Of a stretch of DNA of 64,000 bases, positions 14,638-36,167 are shown in pieces. Numbering within the stretch: the stretch's first letter is position 1; each line of letters opens with the position of its first letter. The stretch covers positions 1 through 64,000 of the forward strand of contig NZ_SKOG01000145.1 in the NCBI RefSeq assembly GCF_007120195.1. Reading direction: 5' to 3'. This DNA comes from Aquisalimonas sp. GTDB lineage: Bacteria > Pseudomonadota > Gammaproteobacteria > Nitrococcales > Aquisalimonadaceae. Under the pieces are notes generated by a model. The model had not been told where the DNA came from and did not search any database. It was given only the letters and a program-made list of their open reading frames with translations. The position numbers were made by a program, and so were the translations under genes.

Positions 14638-14970
14638 CTATTCGCCGCGTGCCACCAGATCCGCCGCCTGGGCGCGGGTAAAGAATTCGCCCTCGCGCTC
14701 GAAACCCGCCTCGAGTGAGGCCTTGACGCAGGTCACGTGGCCGCTGCTCCCACGCTCTGTCACGACCTCCGCCGGAAGCCCGTCGAGGCAATGAAACGGG
14801 CAGGGCGAACCCTTGGCGTTCAGCGAAGGATAGATCTCCCCCGTTTCGCCGTCCTTGAATGCAGGACGAAACCCCAGGCCGCGGTTGTTCTCGCTCACGC
14901 CGCCGGTGGCTCGATACGCCCGGTTTTCCTCTTCAAGACGCCGCTTGCCCATGACCTCTGCTGTTGCCAT
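14638..14970 (-). CDS. Small conserved orphan protein (paralogue of the protein at 34.7 kb)
   Basis: 110 aa from the ATG at 14970, which has CGGAG eight bases upstream. I cannot name the family. It shares a clear core with the protein at 34704-35144: GVSxNNRxxGFRxAFxD, then a xHxLDGLPxxxVxER segment, VxxVKASxxAGFxRxGxFxTRxxAA. No signal peptide or membrane helix is visible, and the protein is polar. A strong sigma70 promoter lies 84-91 bases upstream, so it is not merely part of ppa. It runs into prmA with eight bases between, so it may be the first gene of the prmA operon. Confidence 0.8.
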   Translation of the reverse strand: MATAEVMGKRRLEEENRAYRATGGVSENNRGLGFRPAFKDGETGEIYPSLNAKGSPCPFHCLDGLPAEVVTERGSSGHVTCVKASLEAGFEREGEFFTRAQAADLVARGE

Positions 14971-33169: not shown

Positions 33170-33600
33170 CTGACCGGAAGACCGGGGCAGCGTCACCGCC
33201 TCAACACCACCGCTGTGCGGGGTTGGATTGGATCGGGCGCCGGTGCCATGCTGTCCCGCCAGCGTAGCCTCTTGCGTCCGCGCCCGCCCGAATCCGGCCA
33301 GGATGACGAAGAGCTGCCGGTGCCGCCCGTCGGATCCGGCCACGGCTGGCATACTATCCGTCCAAAACGGATGGTCGCATCAGTATTAGGTAATACCCGC
33401 ATCAATGTAGGGGAACACTCGTATCAATATGGGGGGATCCCGAATAATGAAACATGGTAGCATCGACGGATACAGGCTGGCGGACACTGCTCCCCTTGGC
33501 TTACGGGTGTCGTTCTGATCATCGCGGTGACTGGGCCGCCGGCTTGCGCGGGCAACGGACCGCCCTGGCCCGCAACTCGGCAATCTTGGCGGATGGGACC
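33170..33600. other. Intergenic region thyA to GGDEF gene
   Basis: 431 bases without a convincing gene. The first 185 bases hold nothing I can name. From 33356 onward it becomes a dense regulatory-looking stretch: an ATCCGT-CCAAA-ACGGAT inverted repeat (33356-33372), then three tandem 22-bp repeats (33376-33441). The GGDEF ORF can be extended upstream to an ATG at 33454, but that start has no close ribosome site. Confidence 0.6.
33376..33441. repeat. Three tandem 22-bp imperfect repeats upstream of the GGDEF gene
   Basis: Three copies begin at 33376, 33398 and 33420, exactly 22 bases apart. They share CGYATCA followed by a purine/T-rich core and a G-run (CGCATCAATGTAGGGG, CGTATCAATATGGGGG). 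The first copy contains the perfect palindrome GTATTA-GG-TAATAC. A period of about two helical turns puts every copy on the same face of the DNA, as in cooperative regulator sites. They lie 160-225 bases upstream of the preferred GGDEF start. Confidence 0.65.
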
Positions 33601-34707
33601 ATGCCGGATAAGCAACGCCCTCTCGACCCGCAACGGCTGTTGGTACTCCGGGCACTGCTCGTATTCACGGTTTTCGGCTGCCTGTTTTTCGCCATACTGA
33701 ACCTCTCGCGTGGCGTCTACCCGCTCGCTGCCATCGAGCTCGTCATCGCCGGCTTTTCGGCCTGGCTCTACTACTGGATCGAGCGCACGCCCGTTCCCCA
33801 GCGGTGGCTGATGATCTATCTGGTGCTGTTTTTCGGCACAATAATGGTCGCGATCGGTACCCCCAGCGGAACAGCGACCATCTTTGTCTGGGTGTTCCTG
33901 ATTCCGCTCATTGCTCACCTGCTGCTCGGGCGCGCGCGCGGTCTGGCGGTGTCGGTGGTGTTCCTGGCCCTGGCGGCGACCCTCTACTTCTATCGCATGC
34001 ACGGCCACAGTGAACTGATGGAGGTGATCGCGATCGCCAACGTGGTCATCTGCGCGTTCGTCATCACGGGCTTGTCGTACGCCTATGAAGCGGGGCGGGA
34101 GCAAACCGAGCGCCGCCTCCAGGAGTTGGCCTCCACCGACGCGTTGACCGGGTTGCCGAACCGCGGGGCGCTGGAGCCGATCCTGCGGCACAAACAGGCG
34201 GAAGCCCTGCGGGATGCGTCGGAGTTTGCCGTGTTGTCCATGGATCTCGACTATTTTAAGGCAATCAATGATGACTATGGTCATCAGGTGGGGGATCGCA
34301 CCCTGGTGGTATTCGCGGAGCTACTCAGGCAGCGGCTTCGAGCCAGTGATGTGCCGTGCCGCTGGGGTGGCGAGGAGTTCCAGGTGCTGCTCAGTGGCAC
34401 CGGGCGCGCGGGCGCGGCACGCATCGCCGAAGACATCCGCAATGCCCTCGCCACGACTGAGATCACGGCCGAAGACCACTGTTTTCGCATGACCATCAGC
34501 GTTGGCGTTGCCGTCTACCCAGAGGATGCCAGCGACACGCCGGAGTTGCTGCTCGTCGCGGATCGACGGCTTTATCAGGCAAAGACACAAGGCCGCAACC
34601 GGGTCGTCGACGGCAGCGCTGATGGACAGGCCAGGTACGTGCGCATGGGTGAGCCCCCTGGTGTCGATGCTCAGCGATCCCGCAAAAAAACCCTCAGGGC
34701 CCACTAA
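33601..34707 (+). CDS. Membrane-bound diguanylate cyclase (GGDEF)
   Basis: 368 aa from the ATG at 33601. About five membrane helices lie at 12-165 (LVLRALLVFTVFGCLFFAIL through VVICAFVITGLSYAY). The GGDEF domain starts STDALTGLPNRGALEPIL. The active loop is RWGGEEF (about 255-261), a competent variant, and RASD sits five residues before it as a product-inhibition I-site. It should make c-di-GMP from two GTP. No periplasmic sensor domain is recognisable; the membrane part may be the sensor. Its stop overlaps the stop of the convergent small gene. A longer start at 33454 cannot be excluded. Confidence 0.88.
   Translation: MPDKQRPLDPQRLLVLRALLVFTVFGCLFFAILNLSRGVYPLAAIELVIAGFSAWLYYWIERTPVPQRWLMIYLVLFFGTIMVAIGTPSGTATIFVWVFLIPLIAHLLLGRARGLAVSVVFLALAATLYFYRMHGHSELMEVIAIANVVICAFVITGLSYAYEAGREQTERRLQELASTDALTGLPNRGALEPILRHKQAEALRDASEFAVLSMDLDYFKAINDDYGHQVGDRTLVVFAELLRQRLRASDVPCRWGGEEFQVLLSGTGRAGAARIAEDIRNALATTEITAEDHCFRMTISVGVAVYPEDASDTPELLLVADRRLYQAKTQGRNRVVDGSADGQARYVRMGEPPGVDAQRSRKKTLRAH
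34670..34699 (-). terminator. Weak candidate terminator for the small gene at 34.7 kb
   Basis: On the minus strand, just after the small gene's stop and inside the 3' end of the GGDEF gene, CCC-TGA-GGG is followed by seven T residues. The stem is only three or four base pairs, so the T-run is the stronger part of the evidence. Confidence 0.3.
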
Positions 34708-35144
34708 CCCTTCAATACGTACGGCCAGTCATCAGCCGCCTGGGCGGCCTCTTCACGGGTATAGAATCGGCCCCGGCGGACGAATCCCGCGACAACTGAC
34801 GCCTTCACGGAAACCACTTTCCCCGTGTCGGAACGTTCCAGGACCCAGTCCTCGGGCAAGCCGTCAAGCAGGTGCATCGGTGCCGGCAAACCGTCCCTGT
34901 CGCGCGCGAGCGCCACGACACCCGAGGCCTCGTCCCGGAAGGCAGCCCGGAATCCCTGTTCCCGGTTATTTCCGCTAACGCCACAGCTGCCCATGTACTT
35001 GATGTTGTCCTGGATCAGTTGGTCTCCATCCAGCGGGCGAATCGCGGGCTGCGCGTTCTCGGAAGTGTCACATTGTTTTACATGCTGGCTGCCACCCGCA
35101 CCCAGCGACGTGCTCATGCGCGGTTCTTTCATCGACAGGCCCAT
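34704..35144 (-). CDS. Small conserved orphan protein with sigma54-like promoter
   Basis: 146 aa from the ATG at 35144, preceded by GGGAGGAGG at six bases; the ORF-track GTG lies upstream of that site. The last 90 residues match the orphan at 14638-14970: GVSGNNREQGFRAAFRD, then APMHLLDGLPEDWVLER and VVSVKASVVAGFVRRGRFYTREEAA. The first 60 residues are an unrelated polar extension. No signal peptide or membrane segment is visible. The function is unknown. It is divergent from another small gene (35394), and a sigma54-type element lies at the correct distance upstream. Confidence 0.78.
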   Translation of the reverse strand: MGLSMKEPRMSTSLGAGGSQHVKQCDTSENAQPAIRPLDGDQLIQDNIKYMGSCGVSGNNREQGFRAAFRDEASGVVALARDRDGLPAPMHLLDGLPEDWVLERSDTGKVVSVKASVVAGFVRRGRFYTREEAAQAADDWPYVLKG

Positions 35145-35194
35145 GGCAGGCCTCCTCCCACTCACACCGGTAATGCGCCCATGCTGAATATGAA

Positions 35195-35210
35195 AGCATC
35201 ACTCATGCCA
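35195..35210 (-). promoter_or_regulatory. Sigma54-like promoter for the small orphan gene
   Basis: On the minus strand TGGCATGAGTGATGCT matches the RpoN consensus TGGCACG-N4-TTGCW at all but two defined positions, with GG and GC correctly spaced for -24/-12. The start would be near 35184, leaving about 40 bases to the ATG, with GGGAGGAGG inside. It faces a near-identical element at 35341-35356. Confidence 0.58.
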
Positions 35211-35230
35211 CATGCGTGAGCTCTCAAACC

Positions 35231-35283
35231 GCGCGCAGCCCCTTCGCGCACGCCCCGTCAACAGCGATCGGGCGGTCTGCCCG
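35231..35283. promoter_or_regulatory. Candidate activator sites between the two sigma54-like promoters
   Basis: Two inverted repeats lie roughly midway: GCGCG-N9-CGCGC (35231-35249) and CGGGC-GGTCT-GCCCG (35269-35283). Sigma54 promoters need an upstream enhancer-binding protein, and these are the only symmetrical candidates in the 130-base interval. Neither resembles the NtrC consensus. The role is inferred from position only. Confidence 0.28.
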
Positions 35284-35340
35284 GCGCAACGGACCCGAGG
35301 CGGGGGGACGGCAACTGCGGTGACGCGACCCACGACTAAG

Positions 35341-35356
35341 TGGCACATATGATGCT
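35341..35356 (+). promoter_or_regulatory. Sigma54-like promoter for the small gene at 35.4 kb
   Basis: TGGCACATATGATGCT has the TGGCAC -24 box and a TGCT -12 box with the invariant GG and GC ten bases apart; two other consensus positions differ. The start would fall near 35367, 27 bases before the ATG, leaving room for the AGGTGG ribosome site. The element is almost the mirror copy of the one at 35195-35210 (shared TGGCA-N4-TGATGCTT). Confidence 0.6.
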
Positions 35357-35393
35357 TGTTTTTGTATGTCGCGACTTCATAGGTGGCTTCGTT

Positions 35394-35702
35394 ATGGACA
35401 AGACGCAGGACACGATCAAATTGCACGGAGGCGGTCCGAATATGCCGGAGGCCAGGGTTCAGCAATCAGCGTTCGATTTTTTGACGCTCACACTCGAAGT
35501 GAACCGGCACTGTATGGACGCTTGGTTCCAGGTGCTTCTATGGCCCTGGGGGTTGCAATGGACGCAACCCGCCGTCCCCGGGGAAAGCGATAATGTTATC
35601 AGACCGACCTTTGGTCGCCCCCAGTTCTGGCGACGACCGGGAGTGGCACCGGTGATCCCCTTTCGCTCCAAAACGAATCCGCGTCAAAGCGGTAGGCCTT
35701 AA
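35394..35702 (+). CDS. Small protein of unknown function, sigma54-like promoter, own terminator
   Basis: 102 aa from the ATG at 35394, with AGGTGG seven bases upstream. I recognise no family. The N-terminus is polar (MDKTQDTIKLHGGG). Residues about 24-53 form a tryptophan-rich hydrophobic or amphipathic segment (FDFLTLTLEVNRHCMDAWFQ, then VLLWPWGLQW). The C-terminus is basic and Pro/Arg-rich. It could bind a membrane or granule surface, but that is speculation. It has a sigma54-like promoter and an intrinsic terminator at 35839-35864, so it should be a monocistronic mRNA of about 500 bases. Confidence 0.7.
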   Translation: MDKTQDTIKLHGGGPNMPEARVQQSAFDFLTLTLEVNRHCMDAWFQVLLWPWGLQWTQPAVPGESDNVIRPTFGRPQFWRRPGVAPVIPFRSKTNPRQSGRP

Positions 35703-36167
35703 GGGGCCTCGCACCGATCCCTGGCGCCGGCATGCTCAAGCCCCCTCGCTGCGTCAGGGTGTCGGGTGTCCATTGCAGTGCCGCGATGGCGCCGCCCCTC
35801 ATCACCTGCAACATGTGTGTCGGCGTGCTTTACACCGCAAGGGGTGCCTAGGGCATCCCTTTTTCATGAGGCTTGACGTCAGCGTGGTCGAATGGACCAC
35901 ACCACCACAAGCGCAATCGCTAATGGCTTGGCAAGCGCCGTGAGGATTCGCGAATGGGTGTGGATCCTCCTGTCGGCATGACTCAGGCCTTCGGTTGAAC
36001 TCGAACATCGGCGCATGCCCGAATAGGCTGACAAAGTGATAGGCTACGTGACGTATTGCGAAAGCCGCGGAAGAGCTGCGAGCGGCGGAAGGGTTGTTTG
36101 TGTCTAGTCAATGGCCGTTCGCCGAGGCCGCGGGTTGAGGCGTCGCCGTGGTTGAGCCGTGGTTCGT
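35703..36167. other. Intergenic region upstream of folA
   Basis: 465 bases with no convincing ORF on either strand. The first 136 bases would be a 3' untranslated region ending in the terminator at 35839-35864. Beyond it I note a GTGGTC-GAATG-GACCAC inverted repeat (35884-35900) and no clear -10/-35 pair for folA. Confidence 0.55.
35839..35864 (+). terminator. Intrinsic terminator of the small gene at 35.4 kb
   Basis: GGGGTGCC-TAG-GGCATCCC forms an eight-pair stem with one G-U pair. It is flanked by AA on the left and followed by TTTTT on the right. It is the clearest intrinsic terminator in the window. Confidence 0.72.

Follow-up and report, generated by a model that had tools for sequence, protein, structure and literature searches.

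A divergent pair of sigma-54-type promoters in Aquisalimonas sp., probably carried by a displaced fragment of a double-glycine peptide export system

The window analysed here, a 64,000-nucleotide stretch of an Aquisalimonas sp. contig, contains two small divergent genes, P0001 on the left and P0002 on the right, separated by a 249-bp intergene in which two elements of the -24/-12 type are found (Table 1). The elements face outward, each towards one of the small genes, with 130 bp between them; both carry GG at -24 and GC at -12, and the 10 bp between the pairs correspond to the sigma-54 spacing. The predicted transcript starts, at about 35185 (left) and 35367 (right), fall some 40 and 27 nt 5' of the respective ATG start codons (35144 and 35394). 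The original prediction, made from the letters of this stretch, was accurate on the positions, outward orientation, gap and GG/GC spacing of the pair, and on starts lying 27 to 40 bases before the genes. It had also given both genes a good ribosome site, which holds for the left one (strong, GGGAGGAGG) and not for the right one (weak, AGGTGG).

Table 1. Features of the window discussed in the text
Feature	Coordinates	Strand	Description
Second member of the P0001 family	14641..14970	-	Belongs to a clade without sigma-54 element
MASE6-GGDEF diguanylate cyclase	33454..34707	+	Pfam 1e-37 and 4e-46; convergent neighbour within the thyA-folA interruption
P0001, left gene	34704..35144	-	146 aa; conserved unnamed domain (GGVSxxN..GFRPAF..LDGLP..FYTREQAA) and N-terminal extension
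Sigma-54-type -24/-12 promoter element of P0001	35194..35210	-	TGGCATGAGTGATGCTT; 66 bp to ATG
Probable remnant of a double-glycine peptide gene (3' half)	35241..35300	-	PRVRCAGQTARSLLTGRARR; leader and GG lost
Sigma-54-type -24/-12 promoter element of P0002	35341..35357	+	TGGCACATATGATGCTT; 53 bp to ATG
P0002, right gene	35394..35702	+	102 aa, rich in Trp; a single paralog (36%), in its own genome (contig C113)

Such a pair is rare. Across the 4.05 Mb of the genome, the motif TGGCAYN4GATGCTT is matched exactly by the window pair and nowhere else, and the looser TGGCAYN6TGC is matched three times in the 64 kb of the window, two of the matches being again this pair. Scoring with an RpoN weight matrix, proposed earlier as a check, gave 14.5 and 13.6 for the two elements with a generic matrix based on the general sigma-54 consensus, and a score of at least 13.6 was reached at four other positions of about 128,000. 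When the 249-bp intergene was shuffled 20,000 times with dinucleotides preserved, a site at least matching the weaker of the two window elements appeared 190 times on the plus strand and 110 times on the minus strand, and never as both outward sites together, in line with the earlier judgement that the pair is unlikely to arise by chance.

Neither gene gave a useful match in Pfam, NCBIfam or PDB sequence searches, and by eye neither has a signal peptide or a PEP-CTERM motif. The family of P0001 is not the orphan it had been taken for: a member was found in 41 of 59 relatives. The close orthologs are 61% (G011) and 58 to 60% (G042, G040 and G036) identical to the window copy. The AlphaFold model of P0001, built from six sequences, had a mean pLDDT of 46, too poor for a fold search. 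The N-terminal extension is leader-like in the orthologs, but without GG, and degenerate in the window copy: leader recognition gave an E value of 8e-5 for the G011 ortholog, weak values of 0.01 to 0.06 for the others and nothing for P0001 itself, the best of 377 background values being 0.2. The domain of P0001 retains all invariant residues and has a dN/dS of about 0.1, indicating purifying selection, so that P0001 is not simply debris. As for P0002, no relative was found in genome contigs or in plasmid and viral collections, apart from its paralog in the same genome; a weak match in G005, which sits within a longer reading frame, was judged to be due to chance.

That paralog belongs to a diverged duplicate of the whole divergent module, on contig C113 of the same genome. 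There, TGGCATAGCTCATGCCT lies 66 bp 5' of a leader-bearing gene starting MGVSIHELGKSQALDEGALQRV, GGGCATGGTCTGTGCCT lies about 54 bp 5' of the P0002 paralog, and an intact double-glycine peptide ORF stands between the two divergent elements. The spacing from element to ATG is thus preserved in both arms and in both copies; the heptamer GATGCTT, common to the two window elements, is not retained. The leader-bearing gene of C113 (L075:8345-8782) resembles P0001 over about the first 25 residues only and seems to be disrupted, and the contig ends shortly past the P0002 paralog.

The P0001 orthologs of other genera each have one element, oriented as a promoter and 57 to 66 bp 5' of the start; it scores 15.8 in G011, 13.0 in G042 and 11.7 in G040, and an element before an ortholog in a metagenome-assembled genome (L126) scores 17.6. 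The GG-N10-GC core is retained and the spacer variable. Conservation of the elements in relatives had been suggested as a check, and it is found in the duplicate, in three of the four close orthologs and in L126; the G036 ortholog (L011) has lost the C at -12. Of 52 P0001 family members, 15 have an element scoring 10 bits or more on the sense strand and two on the antisense strand, and one of the latter two is the divergent partner within the window. On a tree of these 52 members, the promoter label requires 5 changes as compared with 13.2 in shuffles, none of 500 being as low. The label marks the P0001 clade and two further clades, one of L029, L051 and L065, the other of L031, L034, L063, L067 and L069; the short members, which are common and include the second one in the window, are mostly devoid of it. 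The hosts of the marked clades other than that of P0001 (L051 being on contig C261 of the Aquisalimonas genome) include some with and some without the exporter described below. Since the same element recurs in duplicate and orthologs, with its distance from the ATG almost unchanged, and follows clades on the tree, the two window elements are very probably sigma-54 promoters.

The neighbourhood of the P0001 orthologs points to a larger system. Two proteins encoded nearby are a sigma-54 activator of 430 aa, in which the sigma-54-contact motif GAFTGA is present, and an ABC exporter of 1017 aa that combines a C39 peptidase with two cyclic-nucleotide-binding domains; directly upstream of the orthologs lies a short ORF for a peptide with a double-glycine leader (for example MARIQLTDLDESRELDHRAMREIRGG), itself lacking a sigma-54 element. 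Orthologs, peptide, activator and exporter co-occur in exactly four of the 59 relatives, G011, G036, G040 and G042. RpoN is near-universal, so that a phylogenetic-profile link between it and the P0001 family is uninformative. In the exporter cluster of G011 (L071, contig C156), genes are also found for an autotransporter beta-domain protein, a caspase-like Sel1 protein, and VWA, PpiC-type (weak TIGR04500) and FHA-domain proteins.

A scan of named genomes returned 281 relatives of the exporter, of which the best 80 (L122-L201) were analysed; these come mostly from Burkholderiales (Cupriavidus, Paraburkholderia, Caballeronia, Noviherbaspirillum), along with Gammaproteobacteria. In these best 80 of 281 loci, the exporter is accompanied by the sigma-54 activator in 79 cases. 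Of the double-glycine ORFs, 91 were found there, and for 68 of them a sigma-54 element lies at most 220 bp upstream, against two in the antisense control. The mature parts of several of these ORFs contain repeats, such as NFYEINNSFYADQMINQFQ or QVAVINNTVVG. The simplest reading of the gene content is that the loci encode a sigma-54-controlled peptide export system; no description of the combination of activator and exporter was found in the literature searched. With a matrix trained on these exporter clusters, whose training minimum is 17.6, the plus element of the window scores 8.3 and the minus element falls below the top 12, so the window elements are atypical for the exporter-cluster regulon.

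The Aquisalimonas genome encodes a single RpoN and, clearly recognisable, nine enhancer-binding proteins. Parts of the export system are missing. The C39-peptidase ABC exporter is absent from the assembly (best own matches 33%, over the ABC part only), as is any exporter-type C39 protein, the sole C39 match being a lipoprotein-like protein. Also absent from the assembly is the dedicated activator, the best own activator reaching 43% over the AAA part only. At the window locus there is no intact peptide with a double-glycine leader; the intact ORF is at C113, and the intergene probably holds a remnant of such a gene. Translated, this stretch of 20 residues aligns with the C-terminal end of the intact peptide of C113 with 46 BLOSUM62 points, equalled by 5 of 3000 shuffles, and it lies 51 nt from the element, compared with 53 nt at C113 and 51 nt in G011. 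The call was based on the protein-level test and on position because a gapped DNA alignment of the window intergene with the peptide gene was not better than shuffles. The two palindromes pointed out earlier, GCGCG-N9-CGCGC and CGGGC-N5-GCCCG, do exist in the intergene and are missing from the C113 duplicate; a comparison of both arms, the duplicate and relatives gave no shared dyad that could be an upstream activator site.

The block itself is out of place. Some 3 kb (window 33170-36158), comprising the MASE6-GGDEF gene, P0001 and P0002, split the lgt-thyA-folA synteny, which four relatives have unbroken, thyA and folA being adjacent in G001, G003, G004 and G011; no clean repeats were found at the interruption as footprints of a transposition. 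The diguanylate cyclase, which the original prediction had placed next to the pair, is indeed a neighbour, merely a convergent one.

Several described systems resemble parts of this arrangement. With sigma-54 -24/-12 promoters served by AAA+ enhancer-binding proteins, the window shares the GG/GC core, the spacing, the intergenic position and the presence of RpoN and enhancer-binding proteins in the genome; it differs in that the cognate activator is absent. Among the themes of the sigma-54 survey by Francke et al. (2011, PMC3162934), double-glycine peptides or bacteriocins were not found. The nearest described exporter is HetC of the cyanobacterium Nostoc (PMC10986499), which has cyclic-nucleotide-binding, C39 peptidase, membrane and ATPase domains in common with the exporter of the P0001 orthologs. 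The latter, however, is proteobacterial, has two cyclic-nucleotide-binding domains and is paired with a sigma-54 activator, and hetC, unlike these exporter loci, is without nearby double-glycine substrates (PMC10986499); the window genome has no exporter of the HetC type.

Double-glycine bacteriocin and microcin secretion (colicin V/CvaB, NHLP exporters) shares the LxIxDLxxxxELDxxAMxxxRGG leader and the C39 ABC exporter, whereas the system of the P0001 orthologs appears to be sigma-54-controlled. Against the NCBIfam models of bacteriocin exporters, the exporter scores below the curated cut-offs, and none of the mature peptides was matched to a known bacteriocin. Finally, the PEP-CTERM/PrsR regulon also has sigma-54 promoters before small exported proteins, and a PEP-CTERM-like gene of this genome carries such an element. 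P0001 and P0002 show no such motif by eye, as mentioned, and among eight own activators tested, which include NtrC, GlrR-like, PrpR and AtoC-like proteins, none reaches the PrsR cut-off (TIGR02915, 502.6), the best having 390.5 bits. The PEP-CTERM-like gene (L093, contig C99) and that of a 50-aa acidic lipoprotein (L100, contig C195) have strong sigma-54-like elements 60 and 71 bp 5', respectively.

With neither exporter nor dedicated activator, only a remnant of the peptide gene, and a position between thyA and folA, the pair is a displaced, partly decayed and orphan offshoot of a larger system, not a complete member of it. In the ancestral arrangement, a dedicated AAA+ enhancer-binding protein would activate the sigma-54 promoters of double-glycine peptides and of a P0001-type protein, and the C39-peptidase ABC exporter with its cyclic-nucleotide-binding domains would cleave and export the peptides. 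Of this arrangement, the window lineage would have kept a fragment, now between thyA and folA, consisting of P0001 with its promoter, the peptide-gene remnant, and P0002 with the divergent promoter. Given the remnant at matching distance and the block within thyA-folA, the tight divergent pair most likely results from the loss of most of the peptide gene, either while the fragment was moving or afterwards. P0001 and P0002 would then most likely be driven from the window promoters by RpoN and some enhancer-binding protein, which, as exporter and dedicated activator are missing, must be another resident one if the promoters are active. We hold with good confidence that the window elements are sigma-54 promoters of a displaced locus fragment derived from the activator, exporter and double-glycine peptide system. 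The original prediction of an undescribed RpoN-controlled two-gene module therefore stands for the sigma-54 promoters, which the paralogous module and the orthologs support, and has to be amended in that the pair derives from a larger system.

Alternatively, as already raised with the original prediction, the elements might be inverted operators for some unknown regulator. It would act on sigma-70 promoters, and the -24/-12 resemblance would be incidental. Two near-identical inverted copies sharing GATGCTT would be expected of such operators, and the weak fit to the cluster-trained matrix goes in the same direction. Yet the orthologs have the element singly, in promoter orientation and position, and this disfavours the operator reading; moreover, it is the GG-N10-GC core that is retained while the spacer varies, the same core is found beside a sigma-54 activator at many related loci, and GATGCTT is lost in the duplicate. 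We regard operators as very improbable.

Two further possibilities accept the promoters and concern their present state. The module could be a silent relic, its promoters no longer activated and its genes drifting, as the reduction of the peptide gene to a remnant, the degenerate leader of P0001 and the absence of an activator ortholog would suggest; but the low dN/dS of the P0001 domain, with every invariant residue kept, and the intact start codons and element spacings on both sides make this unlikely. Or the promoters may now form an independent RpoN regulon under a resident activator (NtrC, GlrR-like, PrpR or AtoC-like), the link to the exporter being historical. This is compatible with the displaced-fragment explanation, whose present state it specifies, and is consistent with the absence of exporter and dedicated activator, with the continuing selection on P0001 and with the sigma-54-linked clade of L029, L051 and L065 in genomes without the exporter. 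The search for a shared activator-binding site, however, gave none, and we give this possibility an even chance.

Secretion of double-glycine peptides in Gram-negative bacteria is known mostly from toxins, and to our knowledge its regulation has been little explored. The parent system is widespread and apparently undescribed, and only scattered pieces of it are left in the Aquisalimonas genome. On balance, the loci compared here slightly favour a secretion regulon that is widespread in beta- and gammaproteobacteria and as yet unnamed. In it, a HetC-like exporter together with its dedicated sigma-54 activator would control and export peptides with double-glycine leaders, and the P0001 family would be a recurrent sigma-54-controlled accessory, able to spread and persist without the exporter, as in the window. 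As the activator stands beside the exporter in nearly all of the best 80 of 281 loci, and elements precede most candidate substrates, there is a direct route to listing and testing the substrates and to finding the inducing signal. The window offers an example of how parts of such a regulon may be duplicated, moved and retained once the exporter has gone.
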